Shown here: positions 138 through 28,417 of the stretch, piece by piece | Layout of the letters: each line of letters begins with the position of its first letter | Position numbering within the stretch: the stretch's first letter is position 1 | Source of the DNA: Lachnospiraceae bacterium | GTDB lineage: Bacteria; Bacillota; Clostridia; Lachnospirales; Lachnospiraceae | Direction: 5' to 3' | Length of the DNA: 41,395 nt | Assembly: GCA_017521605.1 (NCBI GenBank) | Contig: JAFXCD010000024.1 | Span: 1 to 41,395, forward strand | Made by a program: the position numbers and the translations under genes | The notes under the pieces: model-generated | What the model saw: only the letters and a program-made list of their open reading frames with translations | Told to the model about the DNA's origin: nothing | The model's database searches: none

Positions 138-435
138 GATTGGGAAAAGTGCAGGAAAGTTATGTGGGGCATGGAGTTGTGAGAAAAACGCAATCGAGTT
201 TTAGGGAGAAAGGTTAGTTTGAGGAGAGATGCGGATTGAGAGTTCAGGGGTGTTAGTTATTTAATGAGTGTGTTATAATGTTAAAAGAATTTTTGATTTT
301 AGAAGAGGATACAAAAGTGCTTAAAATAGTTGCATTTAGGAATTGCTACGATTCGTAGCACCATTGTAAACAAGAGGTCCTTGTGGCTACAGGAGCATTC
401 TGGTAGTATTTACTGTGAGAAAAGGAGGAGATAGT
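138..435 (+). repeat. Dispersed promoter-leader repeat, copy 1
   Basis: This block aligns end to end with 13470-13771. From the TATAAT to the GCTAC at 386-390 the two copies are both 117 bases long, and I count 93 identical positions without a gap. It contains an extended -10 promoter and about 150 bases of untranslated leader running into the ribosome site of the next gene. In the leader, ACAAG/CTTGT (370-374/380-384) forms a hairpin inside an outer GTAGC/GCTAC pair (355-359/386-390). A second fold, GCTACG/CGTAGC at 345-359, would compete with the outer pair in this copy only. A shorter related piece is at 10828-10892. Confidence 0.8.
271..279 (+). promoter_or_regulatory. Extended -10 promoter for the XRE/M50 pair
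   Basis: TG at 271-272, one base, then a perfect TATAAT at 274-279. No good -35 box is visible at the usual distance, as is common for extended -10 promoters. The predicted transcription start near 286 gives a leader of about 150 bases. The same element sits at the same relative place in the second repeat copy (13604-13612). Confidence 0.75.
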
Positions 436-2971: not shown

Positions 2972-3262
2972 ATGATAAAAACATTAGACGAAGCATTATA
3001 ATACGTAGCAGAATTGGAAGCAGAGAATAGAATATTGCTTGAAGAGGTGGAGCGTTATAGGTCTAGAAATCGTGCCGGTCGCAAGAAGCATGATGAGACA
3101 TGGACTGCATCATACAATGACTTTGCCGCGAAGTACGAAAAGGGTATGACCATTATGGAGATTGTAGCCCAAGGTGGAATTGGCCAAAGAACAGCATGCC
3201 GATATAAAGCGTATCATGACGAAATACGGAAGATAGGAGGGGAAGGCAGTGCAAAAGAATGA
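2972..3262 (+). pseudogene. Small HTH protein with a premature stop at codon 10
   Basis: Reading from the ATG at 2972 gives MIKTLDEAL, then TAA at 2999-3001, then an uninterrupted 87 codons (YVAELEAENRILLEEV onward) in the same frame. A single base change would restore a 96-residue protein with an N-terminal coiled coil and a helix-turn-helix-like tail (KGMTIMEIVAQGGIGQRTACRYK). Reinitiation at the ATG at 3014 would give 82 residues, so residual function is possible. The 3' end overlaps the start of the RhuM-like wreck by 14 bases, showing they were once an operon. An AGTGTC/GACACT pair (2936-2941/2955-2960) upstream may be an operator. Confidence 0.65.
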
Positions 3263-4095
3263 AATTATATTGTTTGAGACTGCAGATAAATCAATAACCA
3301 TTCAAGTAAATGTTGGACAGGAAACGGTTTGGTTAAATAGAAATCAGATGGCTGAACTCTTTGACAGGGATGTAAAGACCATCGGAAAACATGTGAGGGC
3401 TGCATTATAGGAAGAACTTGATGAGTCAACTGTCGCAAATTTTGCGACAGTTCAAAAAGAAGGTAATCGAACCATAGAGAGAAATATAGAATATTATAAT
3501 CTTGATATGATATCTCCATTGGTTATCGTGTAAAATCCAAACGGGGAGTGGAATTCCGGCGTTGGGCAAACTCTGTATTAAAGCAGTACATACTTCAAGG
3601 ATACGCTGTAAACAATAATCGTATTGCACAGTTGAACGAGGTAATACAAATTATGAAGCGTACAGAAAATGCTTTAGACAGCAGGGTAATGCATCAACTT
3701 ATAAGATATCAAATGAAGAATGTAAAGAAGTGATTGCCCAAATGCGGTTTGGAGCTGAATCCGACTTGTTTGGCAAGGAAAAGGATGATTCTTTTCGGGG
3801 AAGTATTGGTAATATATATCAATCCTTTGATGGACAAGAGTTTTACCCTACATTAGAGGAAAAAGCGGCACACTTACTCTACTTTGTAACGAAGAATCAT
3901 AGTTTCTATGATGGAAATAAACGCATTGCGGCTACGATGTTTCTTTATTTCTTAGATAAGAATGGTGTGTTATTCATGGATACCCAAAAGCTTATTGATG
4001 ATTATACATTGGTAGCGCTCACGATTATGATTGCAGAATCCAGACCGGATGAAATGGAAATGATGATTACGGTTATTATGAATTGTTTAAAGTAA
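3249..4095 (+). pseudogene. Broken RhuM-family protein with C-terminal Fic/Doc domain
   Basis: The GTG at 3249, with GGAGGGGAAGG in front, opens a RhuM-type N-terminus (VWLNRNQMAELFDRDVKTIGKH). Three lesions follow. There is an in-frame TAG at 3408-3410. A one-base loss near 3512-3516 shifts the frame of the conserved IGYRVKSKRGVEFRRWA block. A junction near 3680-3690 passes from ALDS straight to QGNASTYKI and lacks the linker normally found there. The C-terminal part is open from the last junction to 4095 and carries the Doc/Fic motif HSFYDGNKRIAA. RhuM-Doc fusions are known accessory proteins linked to toxin-antitoxin-like islands. The C-terminal fragment (GTG at 3730, 121 residues) could still be made but lacks a ribosome site. 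Confidence 0.85.
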
Positions 4096-8802: not shown

Positions 8803-8926
8803 GTCCATTTGTCAAGTCACGACTTACCATGAATTATATGGACTTCATCGAGAAATGGGGTATCTTACACCCAAGATAGCTACCCCTTTGTGCGAGTGCA
8901 GCGCAGGCTAGTTTGAATAATAAATA
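8803..8926 (+). repeat. Dispersed 125-bp repeat A, copy 2
   Basis: Gapless match to 2680-2803. In the shared frame this copy reads RPFVKSRLTMNYMDFIEKWG, then ILHPR and a TAG at 8875-8877; copy 1 reads a diverged version with the same LHPR ending. Identity continues past the stop, so the unit includes untranslated sequence. GGGGTATCTT/AAGATAGCTACCCC (8857-8886) can form an imperfect hairpin. Upstream, 8715-8802 holds an open frame without a recognisable start or product. This and the terminator below are all I see in 8700-9030. Confidence 0.65.
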
Positions 8927-8948
8927 ATGTTTTCTATTAAAATCTTTC

Positions 8949-9889: not shown

Positions 9890-10780
9890 ATGGAGTGGAT
9901 AGCAGCAATGCAACAGGCAATTACTTATATGGAAGAACATCTTATGGAGGAAATTAACTATGAAGATGTAGCGAAACATGTGCACACTTCGAGCTACGAG
10001 TTTCATAGGGCATTTAGCTTTCTTACAGGGATGACTGCCAATACCTATATTCGCAACCGGAGGTTGTCTTTAGCAGGTAGAGAAATTGTAGAAACCGATG
10101 CTAAAATAACAGACATTGCGCTTAGATATGGTTATGAAACACCGGAGAGTTTTACAAAGGCATTTACAAGGTTTCATGGGATTGCGCCTAAATTTGCCAG
10201 AGAAGAATCTGCGAAGCTCTTACTTTTCAATCCACTTGTTATTAAAATAACTGTGGAAGGTGGTAAAAGTATGGATTACAGAATCGTACAAACAAAAGAA
10301 CAAAAATTTATTGCAGTGGTAAGAAGTTTTCAAAATGAAATTATTAATGATGAGGAAAATCATGATATTCCTGATTTTTGGGGAGAGTGTAATGACAAAA
10401 ATCTAATAGGGCCGATTTGCAATCTGCGACCGGAAGGAAAGCGAAACTTGTATGGGTTATGTTCTCCGACAAAGGAAGGTGTTGATACGTTTGAATATGG
10501 AATTGGTGTCTTGATTGATGAAGATACATCGGAGTTTGATTTCTCAGAAATGCAAAAAGCAGGTTATAGTATCTGGGATGTGAAACCGGGAACTTATGTT
10601 GTATTTGACTGCATCGGTGAGGATGGTGATTGTATCGGTGACACTTGGGCTAAATTCTATAAAGAATTCTTGCCACAAATGGGGTATGAATCAGAAGCAG
10701 AAACAGATTATGAAATATATTTTGAAAAAGGAAGAAGGGGTCTATTCTGTGAACTGTGGATTCCGGTAAGAAAAAAATAA
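9890..10780 (+). CDS. AraC-family regulator with GyrI-like effector-binding domain
   Basis: A 296-residue one-component transcription factor. Residues about 5-105 hold the two helix-turn-helix motifs of the AraC/XylS domain, including the conserved second motif IALRYGYETPESFTKAFTRFHG. Residues about 128-296 (MDYRIVQTKEQKFIAVVRSF onward) are a GyrI-like domain that in relatives binds hydrophobic or cationic small molecules. The head-first arrangement is that of Rob/BmrR-like sensors in clostridia. The ribosome site CAGGAGGAA is ideal. A TATAAT at 9860-9865 is a promoter candidate. It ends 3 bases before a strong terminator. Paralogues lie at 9628 (internal deletion) and 12645 (truncated). Confidence 0.92.
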   Translation: MEWIAAMQQAITYMEEHLMEEINYEDVAKHVHTSSYEFHRAFSFLTGMTANTYIRNRRLSLAGREIVETDAKITDIALRYGYETPESFTKAFTRFHGIAPKFAREESAKLLLFNPLVIKITVEGGKSMDYRIVQTKEQKFIAVVRSFQNEIINDEENHDIPDFWGECNDKNLIGPICNLRPEGKRNLYGLCSPTKEGVDTFEYGIGVLIDEDTSEFDFSEMQKAGYSIWDVKPGTYVVFDCIGEDGDCIGDTWAKFYKEFLPQMGYESEAETDYEIYFEKGRRGLFCELWIPVRKK

Positions 10781-10782
10781 TG

Positions 10783-10827
10783 AAATCTCCGCCTCAAACC
10801 ATAACGGTTAGGGGAGGAGATTTTTTT
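10783..10827 (+). terminator. Rho-independent terminator with a CATAACGG loop
   Basis: AAATCTCC (10783-10790) pairs with GGAGATTT (10816-10823); an inner AACC/GGTT stem lies around ATAAC, and a T7 run ends at 10827. The overall layout and tip sequence match the terminator at 2815-2853. Confidence 0.88.
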
Positions 10828-10892
10828 GTGGGGAATAGGGAAAAAAACTATGTGGTGTATGGAGTTGTGAGGAAAGTGATTGATAATTCGTA
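10828..10892 (+). repeat. Partial copy of the promoter-leader repeat
   Basis: GTGGGGAATAGGGAAAAA followed by CTATGTGGTGTATGGAGTTG and TGAGGAAAG matches the upstream third of the repeat at 138-435 and 13470-13771. The part with the TATAAT box and leader is absent. As in copy 2 it starts directly after a terminator with the conserved loop. Confidence 0.6.
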
Positions 10893-13349: not shown

Positions 13350-13432
13350 TTTAGTTTATGAACAATAGTAGCTTACAAACAATTTAACACTACTTGGCAT
13401 AAGGCTTGCAGAAAGTAAATAAATGTATGAAA

Positions 13433-13465
13433 AATGGCTCAGATTCGTAACGGTTCTGAGCCATT
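13433..13465 (+). terminator. Hairpin terminator with a CGTAACGG loop
   Basis: A perfect 11-bp stem AATGGCTCAGA/TCTGAGCCATT (13433-13443/13455-13465) whose 11-base loop contains CGTAACGG. The following GCTTGTTTG is a weak T run. It is immediately followed by copy 2 of the promoter-leader repeat. Confidence 0.7.
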
Positions 13466-13469
13466 GCTT

Positions 13470-13771
13470 GTTTGTGGGAGAAAGTGGCAGAAAGCTATGT
13501 AGGGTATGGAATTGTGAGGAAAAAGCAATCGGGTGCTGGGAGAAATATTGGCTTTAGGATAGTCGTCAATTGTGAGTTTAGGGTATAAGATATTGAGTAG
13601 GTGTGTTATAATGTTGAAAGACATTTTGATTTTAGTAGAGTGAACTAAAGAGCTTAAAGTAATTGTATTTAGCCATTAGTATGATACGTAGCACAAATCT
13701 AAACAAGAGATTCTTGTTGCTACTTTGGTCTAATGCCAGTATGAACTGTGAGAGAACGGGAGGAATATAAA
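13470..13771 (+). repeat. Dispersed promoter-leader repeat, copy 2
   Basis: The counterpart of 138-435. The extended -10 is at 13604-13612 and the leader is about 150 bases. Here the inner hairpin is longer (AACAAGA/TCTTGTT, 13702-13708/13712-13718) and sits inside the same GTAGC/GCTAC pair (13688-13692/13719-13723). The competing upstream hairpin of copy 1 is degraded. With the terminator above, this covers the gene-free stretch 13350-13771. Confidence 0.8.
13604..13612 (+). promoter_or_regulatory. Extended -10 promoter of the GH2 gene
   Basis: TG at 13604-13605 and TATAAT at 13607-13612, 165 bases before the ATG; the matching distance in copy 1 is 162. The core TGTGTTATAATGTT is identical in both copies. 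Confidence 0.75.
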
Positions 13772-16246
13772 ATGAAGAGTATTAGTTTGGATGAAAAATG
13801 GAGATTTAGAAGAAGTTTTTTGGATTCCGTGGGAATGTTGTCACAAGACTTAGGTGTAGAGGTGAATCTTCCTCATGACGGAATGATTGGAACGCCTGTA
13901 TCGCCGGATGCACCTGCTAAGTCGGATAGTGGATATTTTGTAGGTGGGTTGACCAATTATACCAAATATGTTTTGATTCCTAAGGAATGGGAAAATGATT
14001 GCGTGGGATTAAAATTTGATGGAGTTATGATGAATGCTACGGTCGAGATAAACGGTTGTAAGGTAGGTCTTCAGCATTATGGTTACGTACCATTCTATGT
14101 AGATTTAACTAATTATGTGACTTTTGGAGAAGAGAACCGTATTACGATTAATCTCAATACAAGTATGCAAACCAATTCACGTTGGTATACCGGGTCAGGA
14201 TTGTTTCGAGGGGTAAAGCTCTGCCATGGCCCAAGAGTACATATTGTCACGGATGGAGTAGTTGTAAATACGAAGGAAGTGGCGGATGGATATGCCTTCT
14301 TAGAAGCACAGGTGGAAGTAGAAAATGCCACATTGGAAAACAGACTGGTGGAAGTATCAATATTGATTTCAGAAGAGGGAGAAAAGGAGATTCTGACTAA
14401 AACAAAACGTGTGATACAGATTAATCCCGGCAAGAAAGAAATTGCAAGAATCGACCTTCATCTGAAGAATCCAAAACTTTGGAATGTGCAAGAACCTAAT
14501 TTGTATCAGGTTAAGGTTCTGGCTAAGGATTTGGGAGTATATCGTACCCATTTTGAGAAAGCTGAGCATTTTTACGTGGATGAAGCAATGACTCTGTTGG
14601 GGATTCGTACCATTACTGCAGATGCAGTTCGTGGTCTAAGAATTAATGGGAAAGAAGTAAAATTGAAAGGTGGTTGTTTGCATCATGATAATGGATTACT
14701 GGGGGCGGTGAGCCTTTATGAGATGGAAGCAAGAAAGATAAAGAAATTAAAGGAAGTAGGCTTTAATGCCATCCGTACTGCTCACAATCCACCCTCTGCA
14801 GCACTGATTGAGGCATGTGACCGTCTGGGAATGTATGTGTTTGATGAGGCTTTCGATGCTTGGGGCATGGGTAAACGCGGAGGTGATTATAACCAATATT
14901 TTGCAACAGATTGGGAAAAGGATATCACCGCTTTAGTAAGAAGAGACAGGTCCCATCCTTCCGTTATTATCTGGTCCACCGGAAACGAAATCCCGGAAAG
15001 AGGAGGGCTTGGAAACGGATATACTCTGGCTACACAGCTTGCTGAAACAATTCGTAAGCTGGACGGGACCAGACCTGTCAGCAATGGAATTTGTACCCTT
15101 TGGAGTGGTTTGGATGATGCACTGGCAACGGGGCGTAATCAGGAGCAGAATGCTTCTGAGGAACAGTCTTCTGTTATGTGGGAAAACATTACGGAGCCCT
15201 TTACTAATGGATTAGATATTGTGGGATACAATTATATGGAAGACAATTATGAGAAGGACCATGAAATGTTCCCAGAAAGAGTTATACTGGGTTCAGAGAA
15301 TTTTGCCAAGGAAATCGGCTATCGCTGGCCCTTAGTAGAGCGCCTTCCTTATGTCATAGGTGATTTTACTTGGACAGCTTGGGATTATCTGGGAGAAGCC
15401 GGAATCGGAAAAGCAGTATATGTAGATGCTGAAGATTCATTGGTACAAAAAGGAACATGGTCATTGATGCCACCATCAGGGTCTCCGTTTCCATGGAGAA
15501 CAGCCAATGATGCAGATTTTGACATTATGGGACATATGCTTCCGCAAGGAGCTTACAGAAGTGTTGTTTGGGGAAGTAACAAAACGTATCTTTTTACCTT
15601 ACATCCGACGACTTTTCATAAGGTTGAGATGATGACTATGTGGGGATTCCCGGCAGTTCTTTCCTGCTGGAATTATGCCGGTTATGAAGGCGAGCCCATA
15701 GAATTGGTTGTTTATTCCAATGCTGAAGAGGTAGAAGTGCTTATAAACGGGAAGTCTATCGGAAGAAAGTCAGTTTGTATGGAAAGACCTATGCCGAATT
15801 CTGTACATTTTAAAACCGTTTATGAGCCCGGAAAAGTGGAGGCTGTAAGTTACTGTGGTGGCAAAGAAATTAGCAGGGATGTACTGGTGACCGCTGGAGA
15901 GCCGGCTGGGATTGATTTGATTCCGGAAAAATTGGAAATGAGAGCAGATGGACATGACCTTATCTGCCTGAACGTGGAAATCAGGGATAAGGAAGGTTGC
16001 TTAGTGCCGGATGCATCTGTTCCGATAAAAGCAGAAGTATACGGATGTGCAGTACTTGCCGGTTTTGGTTCTGCGAATCCGGTGACAGATGAGGATTATA
16101 CGGATGATTTCACGGTAAGTTACAGAGGTCGTGCCATGGCTATAATACGTTCCGGTTACGAAAGTGGAAGCGTTAATGTCAAGGTGTCAGCAGAGGGTAT
16201 GGAATCTGTGCAGGTAGAGCTACAGGTAATTGGCACCGGCAATTAA
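13772..16246 (+). CDS. Glycoside hydrolase family 2 beta-galactosidase-type enzyme
   Basis: An 824-residue GH2 protein. The N-terminus is a jelly-roll sugar-binding domain (VNLPHDGMI, SDSGYFVGGL), followed by an Ig-like domain and a TIM barrel starting near residue 285. The barrel carries FNAIRTAHNPPS and the acid/base Glu in STGNEIPE (E406); the probable nucleophile is the Glu of LGSENF (E509). C-terminal beta-sandwich modules (DUF4982-like, then a bacterial Ig-like region) complete a common architecture. There is no signal peptide, so it acts on imported oligosaccharides. Specificity (galactoside, glucuronide, fucoside) cannot be fixed by eye. The ATG at 13772 after GGGAGGAA is preferred over a GTG at 13748. 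It is transcribed alone from the repeated leader. Confidence 0.9.
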   Translation: MKSISLDEKWRFRRSFLDSVGMLSQDLGVEVNLPHDGMIGTPVSPDAPAKSDSGYFVGGLTNYTKYVLIPKEWENDCVGLKFDGVMMNATVEINGCKVGLQHYGYVPFYVDLTNYVTFGEENRITINLNTSMQTNSRWYTGSGLFRGVKLCHGPRVHIVTDGVVVNTKEVADGYAFLEAQVEVENATLENRLVEVSILISEEGEKEILTKTKRVIQINPGKKEIARIDLHLKNPKLWNVQEPNLYQVKVLAKDLGVYRTHFEKAEHFYVDEAMTLLGIRTITADAVRGLRINGKEVKLKGGCLHHDNGLLGAVSLYEMEARKIKKLKEVGFNAIRTAHNPPSAALIEACDRLGMYVFDEAFDAWGMGKRGGDYNQYFATDWEKDITALVRRDRSHPSVIIWSTGNEIPERGGLGNGYTLATQLAETIRKLDGTRPVSNGICTLWSGLDDALATGRNQEQNASEEQSSVMWENITEPFTNGLDIVGYNYMEDNYEKDHEMFPERVILGSENFAKEIGYRWPLVERLPYVIGDFTWTAWDYLGEAGIGKAVYVDAEDSLVQKGTWSLMPPSGSPFPWRTANDADFDIMGHMLPQGAYRSVVWGSNKTYLFTLHPTTFHKVEMMTMWGFPAVLSCWNYAGYEGEPIELVVYSNAEEVEVLINGKSIGRKSVCMERPMPNSVHFKTVYEPGKVEAVSYCGGKEISRDVLVTAGEPAGIDLIPEKLEMRADGHDLICLNVEIRDKEGCLVPDASVPIKAEVYGCAVLAGFGSANPVTDEDYTDDFTVSYRGRAMAIIRSGYESGSVNVKVSAEGMESVQVELQVIGTGN

Positions 16247-24451: not shown

Positions 24452-25458
24452 AATACGGACGGTATATTGTAGAACATAAAATATGGATAATGGTTTTTGC
24501 AATACTTCTTGGTTCCATAGAGGTATTTTTGATAACCTTTTCCGGCAGTGACTGGCTGATGATATATGTGGCGATTGCTGCTTTGTTTGCGTTTTTGATA
24601 GGAACGTATATGGAGTATTTAAAATGGAAGAAGTATTTTGGCAGGATAGAAGAGATTTATGTAGGGTTGGATAAAAAATACCTATTGTGTGAAATAATGG
24701 AGGCCGGAAACAGACAGGAGGAACAGCTGCTTAAGGAATTGTTTTATGAGATGGAAGTCAGTATGAATGAGAATGTATCCAGATATCGTAGGAACACACA
24801 GGAATATAAGGAATATGTGGAGACCTGGGTTCATGAGATTAAGATACCGATAGGGGCTATGAAAATGATATTAGCAAACCACCCAGAGGCAGATTTCGGA
24901 CAGGGAGAAGAGCTTTCCCGTATGGAGAGCTATGTGGAACAAGCATTGTATTATGCAAGAAGTAATGAAGTGGAGAAGGATTACCTGATTAATAGTGTTT
25001 CTTTGCAACAGGTTATACAACAGGTTATTTTAAAGAGGCGTACGACCTTGCGTGGAATAAATGCCCATATGAATTTACACGATTTAGAACTGACGGTACA
25101 TAGTGACAGCAAATGGTTGGAATTTATGCTGGGTCAGGTTGTGGATAATAGTATTAAATATGGTGATAAGGATGAGTTTGTGTTGGAAATCTATGGAGAG
25201 AAACAGGAAAATGCCACCTTGCTCCATGTTAAGGATAATGGGGTGGGTATAAAATCTACAGAGATTTCAAAAGTTTTTGAAAAGGGGTTTACAGGAAGCA
25301 ATGGCAGAAAGGGAGCTAACTCTACAGGTATAGGTTTATATCTTTGTAAAAAGCTTTGTAGGCGTTTAGAGCATGATTTACGGATTACATCTGAGGAATG
25401 GAAGGGGACTACAGTAACCTTCATATTTCCCCATTCATCAATGATAGATATGAAATAA
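24448..25458 (+). CDS. BceS-like intramembrane-sensing histidine kinase
   Basis: A 336-residue kinase with two transmembrane helices (about 10-30 and 35-55) and almost no extracellular loop, the hallmark of intramembrane-sensing BceS-type kinases, which receive their signal from the transporter. The phospho-acceptor is His129 in ETWVHEIKIPIGA. The ATPase domain has the N box (GQVVDNSIKYG), G1 box (VKDNGVGI) and a second glycine-rich box (GIGLYLCKKLC). It overlaps the response regulator gene by 4 bases. A promoter with a duplicated operator separates it from the transporter genes, so transporter expression can be raised independently of the sensor. Confidence 0.93.
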   Translation: MKYGRYIVEHKIWIMVFAILLGSIEVFLITFSGSDWLMIYVAIAALFAFLIGTYMEYLKWKKYFGRIEEIYVGLDKKYLLCEIMEAGNRQEEQLLKELFYEMEVSMNENVSRYRRNTQEYKEYVETWVHEIKIPIGAMKMILANHPEADFGQGEELSRMESYVEQALYYARSNEVEKDYLINSVSLQQVIQQVILKRRTTLRGINAHMNLHDLELTVHSDSKWLEFMLGQVVDNSIKYGDKDEFVLEIYGEKQENATLLHVKDNGVGIKSTEISKVFEKGFTGSNGRKGANSTGIGLYLCKKLCRRLEHDLRITSEEWKGTTVTFIFPHSSMIDMK

Positions 25459-25508
25459 CCTTACAGGAATGTAAGGTTATTGTAAGTTTAAGCCATGGTT
25501 TTTATAAA
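25457..25508 (+). promoter_or_regulatory. BceR-type operator and promoter of the ABC transporter
   Basis: AACCTTACA-GGAA-TGTAAGGTT (25457-25478) is a perfect inverted repeat containing TNACA-N4-TGTAA. A third half-site TGTAAG starts 11 bp after the second (25481-25486), on the same face of the helix. TTGTAA (25480-25485) doubles as a -35, with TATAAA at 25503-25508 after a 17-base spacer. A near copy is at 28365-28394. Confidence 0.85.
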
Positions 25509-26333: not shown

Positions 26334-28356
26334 TTTAGCCTATAAGAATATCAGAAAAAGTATGAGGGATTATGTAGTGTATTTTTTGACTTTGATATTT
26401 GGAGTTGCCATATTCTATATTTTTAATTCCGTTGGTGACCAGAGTGCTATCTTAAGTCTTTCGGAAACAGGTTATGAATTTATTAAACTGATGCTAATGC
26501 TTTTAGAAATGCTTTCTATTGGAGTGGCATTTGTATTAGGATTCCTAATCATTTATGCTAATAAATTTCTGATTCAAAGAAGAAAAAAAGAATTTGGGAT
26601 TTACTTGTTATTAGGTATGAATAAAAGGGATGTGTCTAAGGTATTGATTGGAGAGACCTTTCTTGTAGGTATGCTGTCTTTGGTGGCAGGTATTGGAATT
26701 GGTATTTTTGTATCTCAGTTTGTATCTATTCTGTTAGCTAAATTTTTTGAAGCAGATATGAGTAATTATGTGTTTACCATTTCCGTTGGAGCTGTTATAA
26801 AAACAATTATTAATTTTATGGTGATTTATCTGGTGGTACTGTTGTTTCATTCTGTAACTATTTCCAAATTGAAGCTAATTGATTTGATTTCGGCTGAAAA
26901 GAAAGCAGAAAAGCAGAAGTTTAAGAATCCTGTATTGGCAATGATTGTATTTCTGGTATCAGTGGCAGCTCTTGGAGTAGCTTATTATCGTGTAGCTTTT
27001 TGCGGTAGTGAAGTAATGAAAAAGGAAATGCTTTCTTGGATACTAGTAGGGATTATATCAACGTTTTTGTTATTCTGGTCTATGTCAGGTTTTCTGTTAA
27101 GCAGCATTAAGAAAGTAAGAGGATTCTACTATAAGGAGCTAAATTCCTTTGTTGCAAGACAGTTTTGTAAGAGTATTAATTCATCTGTAGTTTCTATGGG
27201 AATCATATGTCTTATGCTATTTTCCATGATCTGTACTTTTTCAGGAGGATTATCCGTAGCTCATCAACTACAGGAAAATGTGCGGAAAATGACACCGGTG
27301 GATTTTAGCATTATTTATTTTGCGCAAGAACCTATTGAGGATTGCCTTAAAAGGGAAGGAATGCCATTAGAAACCTGGGCAGAGGATTATGTGGAGTTAC
27401 CTATATATCATACGGAGAATATGACATGGGAAACAGGTTTGGGAGACGTTGCAACAATTGCAAAACAGCAGTTTCCTGTAGCTCGCTGGAATACACCGGA
27501 AAATATTATGAGCCTGACAGATTATAATACACTGGCAAGTATGTATGGACTGGAAACCTATGAATGCAAGGAGAATGAATACTTAATAGTTTGTGATTTT
27601 TTATTGTTAAAGGAGTTTCGAGACAGTGGAATGGCACAAGGGGTAACACGACAGATTGGTGCAAGTATTCTGAAACCTGCTTTGTCCCAATGTGTTGAAG
27701 GTTATTTGGGGATGTCCGGTATGAATAATAATTTAGGTATCGTTGTTGTTCCGGATATTGTGATTGAAAAGGAGAAGAGCAGTCTGCAGAGAGCAGGATA
27801 TGTGATGGCTGGTAATTATATTGTTACTTCCAAGGAAGAAAAGAAGGAGATGAACGGAAATTTGTGGGAGGCTGCTTCTGCATATACGGTAATGGATTAC
27901 AATTCAGAGAATCCAATTCCGTCTATGACTTTAGGAACACAGGTGGATATCCGGGAATCCAATAATGGTCTTACCATGATTGTGGCATTTGTGGTTATTT
28001 ATATCGGTATTGTATTTTTGATTGCAAGTGCAGCAATGCTTTCTTTGAAGGCGCTTTCAGAGTCAATTGATTCTACCGGTAAATATGAAATTCTTAAGAA
28101 AATAGGTTGTGAGAGCAGAAACTTGAAAAAAGCATTGTTTTTGCAGATTGGAGTATATTTTATATTACCATTAGTGGTTGCTATTATTCATTCAGTATTC
28201 GGCCTTCAGTATGTAAGTTATGTGATTAATGCATTTACCAGACAGAACATTGTTTGGGGAGTGTTAGTGACCGGAATATTGTTAATTGTGTTATATGGTG
28301 GATATTTACTTGCTACCTATAGTGGAAGCAAGCGGATTGTAGGTCTGGAAGATTAA
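26320..28356 (+). CDS. BceB-like ABC transporter permease
   Basis: A 678-residue FtsX-fold permease with about ten transmembrane helices. Four to six helices precede a large extracellular domain (about residues 315-540), which is the peptide-binding module characteristic of BceB; three or four more helices follow, with a typical final FtsX helix and IVGLED tail. The size fits the family (usually 620-680). It overlaps the ATPase gene by 14 bases and starts with GGGAGGTGAG upstream of the ATG. In this family the permease and the sensor kinase form one sensory complex in the membrane. The extracellular domain is the fast-evolving part, so peptide specificity cannot be guessed. Confidence 0.94.
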   Translation: MNWYSLAYKNIRKSMRDYVVYFLTLIFGVAIFYIFNSVGDQSAILSLSETGYEFIKLMLMLLEMLSIGVAFVLGFLIIYANKFLIQRRKKEFGIYLLLGMNKRDVSKVLIGETFLVGMLSLVAGIGIGIFVSQFVSILLAKFFEADMSNYVFTISVGAVIKTIINFMVIYLVVLLFHSVTISKLKLIDLISAEKKAEKQKFKNPVLAMIVFLVSVAALGVAYYRVAFCGSEVMKKEMLSWILVGIISTFLLFWSMSGFLLSSIKKVRGFYYKELNSFVARQFCKSINSSVVSMGIICLMLFSMICTFSGGLSVAHQLQENVRKMTPVDFSIIYFAQEPIEDCLKREGMPLETWAEDYVELPIYHTENMTWETGLGDVATIAKQQFPVARWNTPENIMSLTDYNTLASMYGLETYECKENEYLIVCDFLLLKEFRDSGMAQGVTRQIGASILKPALSQCVEGYLGMSGMNNNLGIVVVPDIVIEKEKSSLQRAGYVMAGNYIVTSKEEKKEMNGNLWEAASAYTVMDYNSENPIPSMTLGTQVDIRESNNGLTMIVAFVVIYIGIVFLIASAAMLSLKALSESIDSTGKYEILKKIGCESRNLKKALFLQIGVYFILPLVVAIIHSVFGLQYVSYVINAFTRQNIVWGVLVTGILLIVLYGGYLLATYSGSKRIVGLED

Positions 28357-28364
28357 TATACAAA

Positions 28365-28417
28365 AACCTTACAGAAATGTAAGGTTTTTGTAAGTTAATT
28401 GCATGGTAGACTACTAA
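28365..28417 (+). promoter_or_regulatory. BceR-type operator and promoter of the Ere-like gene
   Basis: AACCTTACA-GAAA-TGTAAGGTT (28365-28386) matches the operator at 25457 in 20 of 22 positions. The third half-site TGTAAG (28389-28394) again lies 11 bp after the second. TTGTAA at 28388-28393 and a weak TACTAA at 28412-28417 make the promoter. This puts the next gene in the same regulon. Confidence 0.8.

Follow-up and report, generated by a model that had tools for sequence, protein, structure and literature searches.

The window, the whole stretch of DNA that was analyzed, is 41,395 nucleotides long and makes up all of contig C6 of a Lachnospiraceae genome (G000; 3,806,430 bases in 125 contigs). 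It carries two copies of a noncoding block, copy A in front of a gene for an XRE regulator and copy B in front of a gene for a GH2 glycosidase. We consider it probable that the block is a duplicated DNA control region. Copy A would be the XRE gene's own control region, in which the XRE protein most likely binds a palindrome. Copy B now fronts the GH2 gene, which is probably an XRE target. The genes concerned were as follows.
436-876, + strand: XRE (HTH_3) regulator of 146 aa (Pfam HTH_3, E 6e-15), with a C-terminal half that is hydrophobic by eye
884-1420, + strand: M50-like membrane protein (Peptidase_M50, E 7e-4, below the family cut-off)
13772-16246, + strand: GH2 glycosidase behind copy B (Glyco_hydro_2_C, E 4e-24)

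The original prediction had described 138-435 and 13470-13771 as a duplicated block. Local blastn analysis paired 141-429 (copy A) with 13475-13764 (copy B) on the + strand, with 74.7% identity over 292 columns (E 1e-45). This likeness is far above the chance level, confirming that A and B are homologous and that the duplication is real. Positions 248-423 and 13581-13756 aligned without gaps, and 132 of their 176 bases were identical. The 93 ungapped matches reported earlier for the 117-base core were reproduced exactly by a recount over 273-389. All 19 candidates from the genome itself were scored, and no full copy was found in it besides A and B. The mismatches between A and B were clustered (179 of 20000 shuffles were as uneven). 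A coding reading of the block was rejected. Both copies contained stops in all six frames, and the ungapped mismatches were distributed by phase as 17, 14, and 13, showing no clear codon periodicity.

On its left side, copy A is bounded by a repeat.
1-141, + strand: hairpin-rich repeat, with a 100% copy at the end of contig C71, where identity stops after base 141
The DNA fold of 1-137 had a z of -5.8, and the repeat resembles what we take to be the right end of an IS200/IS605-type insertion sequence. Copy A begins where this repeat ends, so its left edge is probably not original, and the A/B homology may once have extended further left.

Judged from its sequence relatives, the block is a composite. 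Its upstream half is a post-ppdK spacer, and its downstream half consists of a palindrome and a weak promoter-like pair. Three stretches of the window contain the spacer element.
142-248, + strand: upstream half of copy A (post-ppdK spacer element), with similarity to ppdK spacers detectable over about 142-223
13393-13526, + strand: left flank and upstream half of copy B, consisting of post-ppdK sequence that includes a terminator (13433-13465)
10767-10875, + strand: a further shortened copy, with the terminator and the start of the post-ppdK element and without the operator part
In contig C27 of the same genome and in genomes G276 and G115, the ppdK terminator is followed by sequence that is 73-80% identical to the upstream half of copy A for about 80 bases. 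The identity of this half to the post-ppdK sequence of G131 was 82% over 56 bases. When copy B was used as the query, a third, partial match was found in C27, directly behind the terminator of a complete ppdK gene. Here, 13393-13526 matched the sequence just after ppdK at 85.9% over 135 bases, terminator included, and local blastn thus carried the homology of copy B to the post-ppdK region leftward through the terminator and beyond the block. The shortened copy was 72% identical over 119 bases to G131 downstream of ppdK and 80% identical over 55 bases to copy B. The aligned post-ppdK element reads roughly TATGTGGGGTATGGAGTTGTGRGGAAAAAGCGATTGG.

Among 138 genomes of the genus, the sole match of more than 50 bases outside the genome itself was located behind ppdK in G276. 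Among 397 genomes of the family, drawn from a larger group, two further matches of more than 50 bases were found, both again behind ppdK; their genomes, G115 and G131, each belong to another genus. The element sits between the ppdK terminator and the next gene in these four genomes (G000 in C27, G276, G115, and G131). Copies A, B, and 10767-10875 have the spacer element without an adjacent ppdK gene. A tree of the seven spacer copies contained no supported fork.

In G000 (C27), G276 (C20), and G115 (C10), no more than about 1.1 kb of contig remains after ppdK, and the contig of G131 continues for tens of kb. By eye, the four genomes appear to differ from one another in the first reading frames that follow ppdK. 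The differing neighbors of ppdK, together with the extra spacer copies in the window, hint that the 3' side of ppdK is a variable site; four genomes are few. A broader proposal is that this side serves as a landing pad in Lachnospiraceae. A conserved unit made up of a terminator, a G-rich spacer, and a promoter would repeatedly capture accessory genes and be copied with them as a loose cassette array; in this genome, one unit would have gained the XRE operator and placed the glycosidase under that regulator. We regard this proposal as rather doubtful. Downstream of ppdK in G131, no second spacer copy was found, and no integrase was recognized by eye among reading frames of at least 110 aa, so this genome gave the proposal no help. 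A literature search found no paper joining ppdK, Lachnospiraceae, an intergenic region, and insertion.

Other repeated or broken sequences were observed in the window. A 125-base repeat (2680-2804 and 8803-8927, 73% identity) is followed each time by a terminator-like hairpin, the second of which was recognized by eye. The final bases of the repeat are similar to the end of ppdK (for 2779-2803, 96% over 25 bases). Short reading frames that seem to be broken were seen by eye to cluster at 3014-4095 and are possibly gene remnants. A palindromic repeat (25448-25499 and 28356-28407, 83%) flanks ABC transporter genes that follow a two-component system.

From P1 onward, the block contains the following parts.
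269-279, + strand: extended -10 region of P1, TGTTATAAT, with TATAAT at 274-279; 269-278 are identical in A and B
279-344, + strand: middle segment, present in A and B only, with 52 of 66 bases matching
345-370, + strand: putative operator, GCTACGATTCGTAGC followed by CACNNNTGTAAA, which recurs upstream of XRE orthologs in G206, G306, and, altered, G280
381-409, + strand: putative weak gene-proximal promoter P2 (TTGTGG, 17 bp, TAGTAT), a pattern placed by eye
13678-13703, + strand: operator-like site of copy B with a changed left arm, AGTATGATACGTAGC followed by CACNNNTCTAAA, from the A/B and five-sequence comparisons
In the downstream half, the palindrome GCTACGAWTCGTAGC is followed by CACNNNTGTAAA and then by the weak promoter-like pair. 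P1 has a perfect extended -10 and little at -35 in both copies, and it is also present in the ppdK spacers of C27 and G276. A consensus promoter scan reported neither P1 nor P2. The middle segment had no detectable relation to the leader of G280, as shuffles were as good in 1864 and 1287 of 2000 local alignments and in 1186 and 311 of 2000 global alignments. The 15-base inverted repeat (345-359) precedes the XRE start by about 77 bases. After the element, a P2-like arrangement was recognized by eye in five sequences, in which 16 or 17 bases separate a TTG-type -35 from a -A---T -10. The P2 spacer was the most divergent segment tabulated (8 of 17 bases matching), a value that is not significant alone (6575 of 20000 shuffles). 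Compared with copy A, copy B keeps 8 of 9 bases at 353-361 and 4 of 7 bases of the left palindrome arm. Binding at this degraded site may be weak or lost.

To find relatives of the XRE gene, its protein was searched against the 138 genus genomes, with at most 28 candidates scored per genome. Matches at E 1e-15 or better were present in 61 of them, the genome itself included. The closest orthologs were those of G280, G306, and G206 (58-61% over 142/146 residues), followed by weaker relatives in G330, G236, G276, and G212 (33-41% over 131-141 residues). Most of the remaining matches covered the HTH part. The three close orthologs are preceded, at a similar distance from the start codon, by GCTACGAATCGTAGCACNNATGTAAA and then TTCTTG (GCCACGAAAGGTAGCAATAATGTAAA in G280). 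The palindrome was perfect in G206 and G306 and imperfect in G280. In G206 and G306, the shared sequence begins at the palindrome, and the sequence preceding it differs. At the three closest orthologs, with changes in G280, the palindrome thus recurs together with CACNNNTGTAAA and a YCTTG string close by, in line with the earlier suggestion of a shared operator set.

Dinucleotide shuffles were used to evaluate the local alignments. For A-G206, A-G306, G280-G206, and G280-G306, 0 of 2000 shuffles were as good. The counts were 4 for B-G280, 51 for B-G306, 56 for B-G206, and 63 for A-G280, each of 2000; the last three matches are borderline. Sixteen other XRE loci scored 12-18, compared with 32-35 for G206 and G306, and the best of them was equaled by 9 of 300 shuffles. 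The four relatives at 33-41% also scored 12-18, with a lowest shuffle count of 29 of 500. The operator part was thus not detected at these 20 more distant XREs, and the link between operator and XRE comes from few genomes. Because G206 and G306 hardly differ here, the three orthologs represent about two lineages. Within that range, the downstream part of the block reads as the operator and promoter of the XRE gene. A literature search on the operator gave nothing related by title among the matches listed. After the XRE and M50-like genes, 1595-2656 encodes a Fic-domain protein resembling SoFic (PADLOC E 1e-37).

The gene behind copy B was compared with its relatives in the same way. GH2 matches at E 1e-100 or better were found in 30 of the 138 genus genomes, the genome itself included. 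Twenty GH2 loci were fetched; one was the window's own, two were cut off before the start, and 17 were compared. None of the 17, one of which had only about 100 bases upstream, carried the block, and the best match was 13 bases long (E 0.1). The block therefore appears new at GH2 in this lineage, and its operator part appears older at XRE. This pattern suggests that an XRE-type region was copied to GH2 or that GH2 replaced a second XRE copy.

The two copies could also be a neutral leftover of a segmental duplication around ppdK, in which case the promoters would be common by descent and the regulator no longer common. Several diverged post-ppdK pieces in the first 14 kb agree with this explanation, and the 75% identity and the degraded palindrome arm of copy B fit drift. 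However, the mismatches are unevenly spread (the 179 of 20000 shuffles given above), both copies retain an intact P1 -10, and XRE orthologs of other genomes share the operator part. We judge a neutral leftover to be unlikely, and a duplicated control region remains our preferred reading.

The complete block was then sought elsewhere. It was not found in the other 137 of the 138 genus genomes, with at most 5 candidates scored per genome, or in the other 396 of the 397 family genomes, with at most 2 scored per genome. A third multi-genome DNA search scored at most 3 per genome. With so few candidates scored in each genome, these searches could have overlooked a weak copy. When 101 genus genomes were searched with 248-435 alone, only matches of 18-50 bases were obtained outside A and B. 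The phage and plasmid collections contained no match to the block. Short matches occurred at 8 places in the genus search (23-49 bases) and 5 places in the family search (29-44 bases). Eight of these 13 were inside stop-free frames of at least 160 codons, and the other 5 were in shorter frames (31-82 codons); all 13 were taken as chance.

Pattern scans were performed for the operator. The pattern CGTAGCANNNWTSTAAA was found at 8 places in 7 of the 138 genomes, against 5 places for a reversed control. Four of the 8 were A, B, G206, and G306; tblastn found no XRE relative in the loci of the other four. A scan with ACGANTCGTAGCANNNNTGTAAA in a collection of 84,980 named species, which leaves out records very near the window, gave 4 records. 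Two were Lachnospiraceae metagenome assemblies from roe deer (RGIG4575 and RGIG4583), which are very likely G206 and G306. The other two matches, L108 and L109, were within long open frames and were discarded as chance. The XRE protein was also scanned against this collection; 130 stretches matched, and none encoded a relative. Three pattern scans of viral contigs gave 1, 0, and 3 matches, and the surroundings of the three look unrelated.

Spread of the block as a unit is thus seen only within this genome, which has two copies: at the few candidates scored per genome, no full block was found in the 137 genus genomes or the 396 family genomes, and none was found in the phage and plasmid collections. 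What the search of related genomes did recover was the operator part, upstream of XRE in G280, G206, and G306. Two noncoding copies of about 300 bases at unrelated genes might also be expected of a nonautonomous, MITE-like mobile element that inserts upstream of genes. The genome has only two full copies, none was found elsewhere, and the homology of copy B to the ppdK region runs on past the block. Moreover, no terminal inverted repeats lay at the block edges among the 25 longest of 34 inverted pairs (at least 25 bases). We consider such an element extremely improbable.

The original prediction had also proposed a regulatory RNA. On this reading, the leader of about 150 bases downstream of P1 would be a structured RNA, such as a riboswitch or a protein-binding leader, that controls both genes. 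In favor of this reading, both copies have conserved a long leader at a similar distance from the start codon, and GTAGC and GCTAC arms are present in both. No Rfam family was matched at its gathering score. Relaxing the search to E up to 10 brought up three weak matches (E 1.7, 5.8, and 5.2), all far under their gathering scores. The fold energies were within the shuffle range, with z -1.2 (25 of 200 shuffles as stable) and z +0.5 (143 of 200). For the fold of copy A (49 pairs), copy B keeps 23 pairs unchanged, has 7 with one side changed and 0 with both changed, and breaks 19. For the fold of copy B (42 pairs), copy A keeps 22 unchanged, has 5 with one side changed and 0 with both changed, and breaks 15. 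Copy B has AGTAT in place of the left arm GCTAC (345-349), so the nested hairpin of the original prediction differs between the copies.

The covariation check was extended to related genomes. For five sequences, the 7-pair palindrome was the only structure that RNAalifold predicted; it had 0 double changes and an unfavorable covariation term. For seven spacers, no structure was predicted. The earlier remark that no compensatory base changes were visible was therefore correct, both for A against B and for the five sequences. A palindrome in DNA accounts for the sole hairpin kept, and the middle segment of the leader was not recognizable in G280. Cis-regulatory RNA families in Rfam likewise have long conserved 5' leaders; here, in contrast, no family reached the cut-off and no covariation was seen. 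With unremarkable folding as well, the regulatory RNA was rejected, and we rate it as very unlikely. Overall, the operator part of the earlier interpretation was supported, and the RNA part was not.

The preferred reading, a duplicated DNA control region, suggests the following mechanism. Copy A would combine an upstream promoter, P1, within a ppdK-type spacer with a gene-proximal palindromic operator and a weak promoter, P2. The palindrome lies about 66 bases after the inferred start of P1 and about 64 bases before that of P2. The XRE protein most likely binds it and would thereby autoregulate its own gene; bound XRE could block transcripts from P1 or act on P2. With the copied composite region now reaching to within a few bases of its start codon, GH2 has probably come under the control of this XRE protein or of a related one. 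The site in copy B retains its right side (8 of 9) but has a changed left arm (4 of 7), and GH2 may therefore respond weakly or to another XRE. From these sequence comparisons, we infer that XRE binds, that P1 and P2 are used, and that copying went from XRE to GH2.

Autoregulated repressor genes of the XRE/Cro-CI type have a palindromic operator upstream. Similarly, the HTH_3 gene here follows a 15-base palindrome that is kept, whole or in part, with its closest orthologs. Differences are that binding is putative here, that the protein has a hydrophobic C-terminal half and an M50-like neighbor, and that a second copy of the control region stands at a glycosidase gene.

The case also resembles horizontal regulatory transfer, or the switching of intergenic regions, a term present in PMC5890482 and PMC9944727. 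As in that process, a regulatory region here stands apart from its original gene. Unlike in it, both copies are in one genome and are 25% diverged, and no donor allele was found at GH2.

If the preferred reading is right, the window would provide a small, testable case of a gene that changes its control via the regulatory DNA of another gene. Its setting would be gut bacteria, in which few regulators have been worked out. The palindrome offers a candidate operator sequence for an uncharacterized XRE protein. The spacer behind ppdK, which is conserved and has been copied repeatedly, may point to a site that varies in these genomes.
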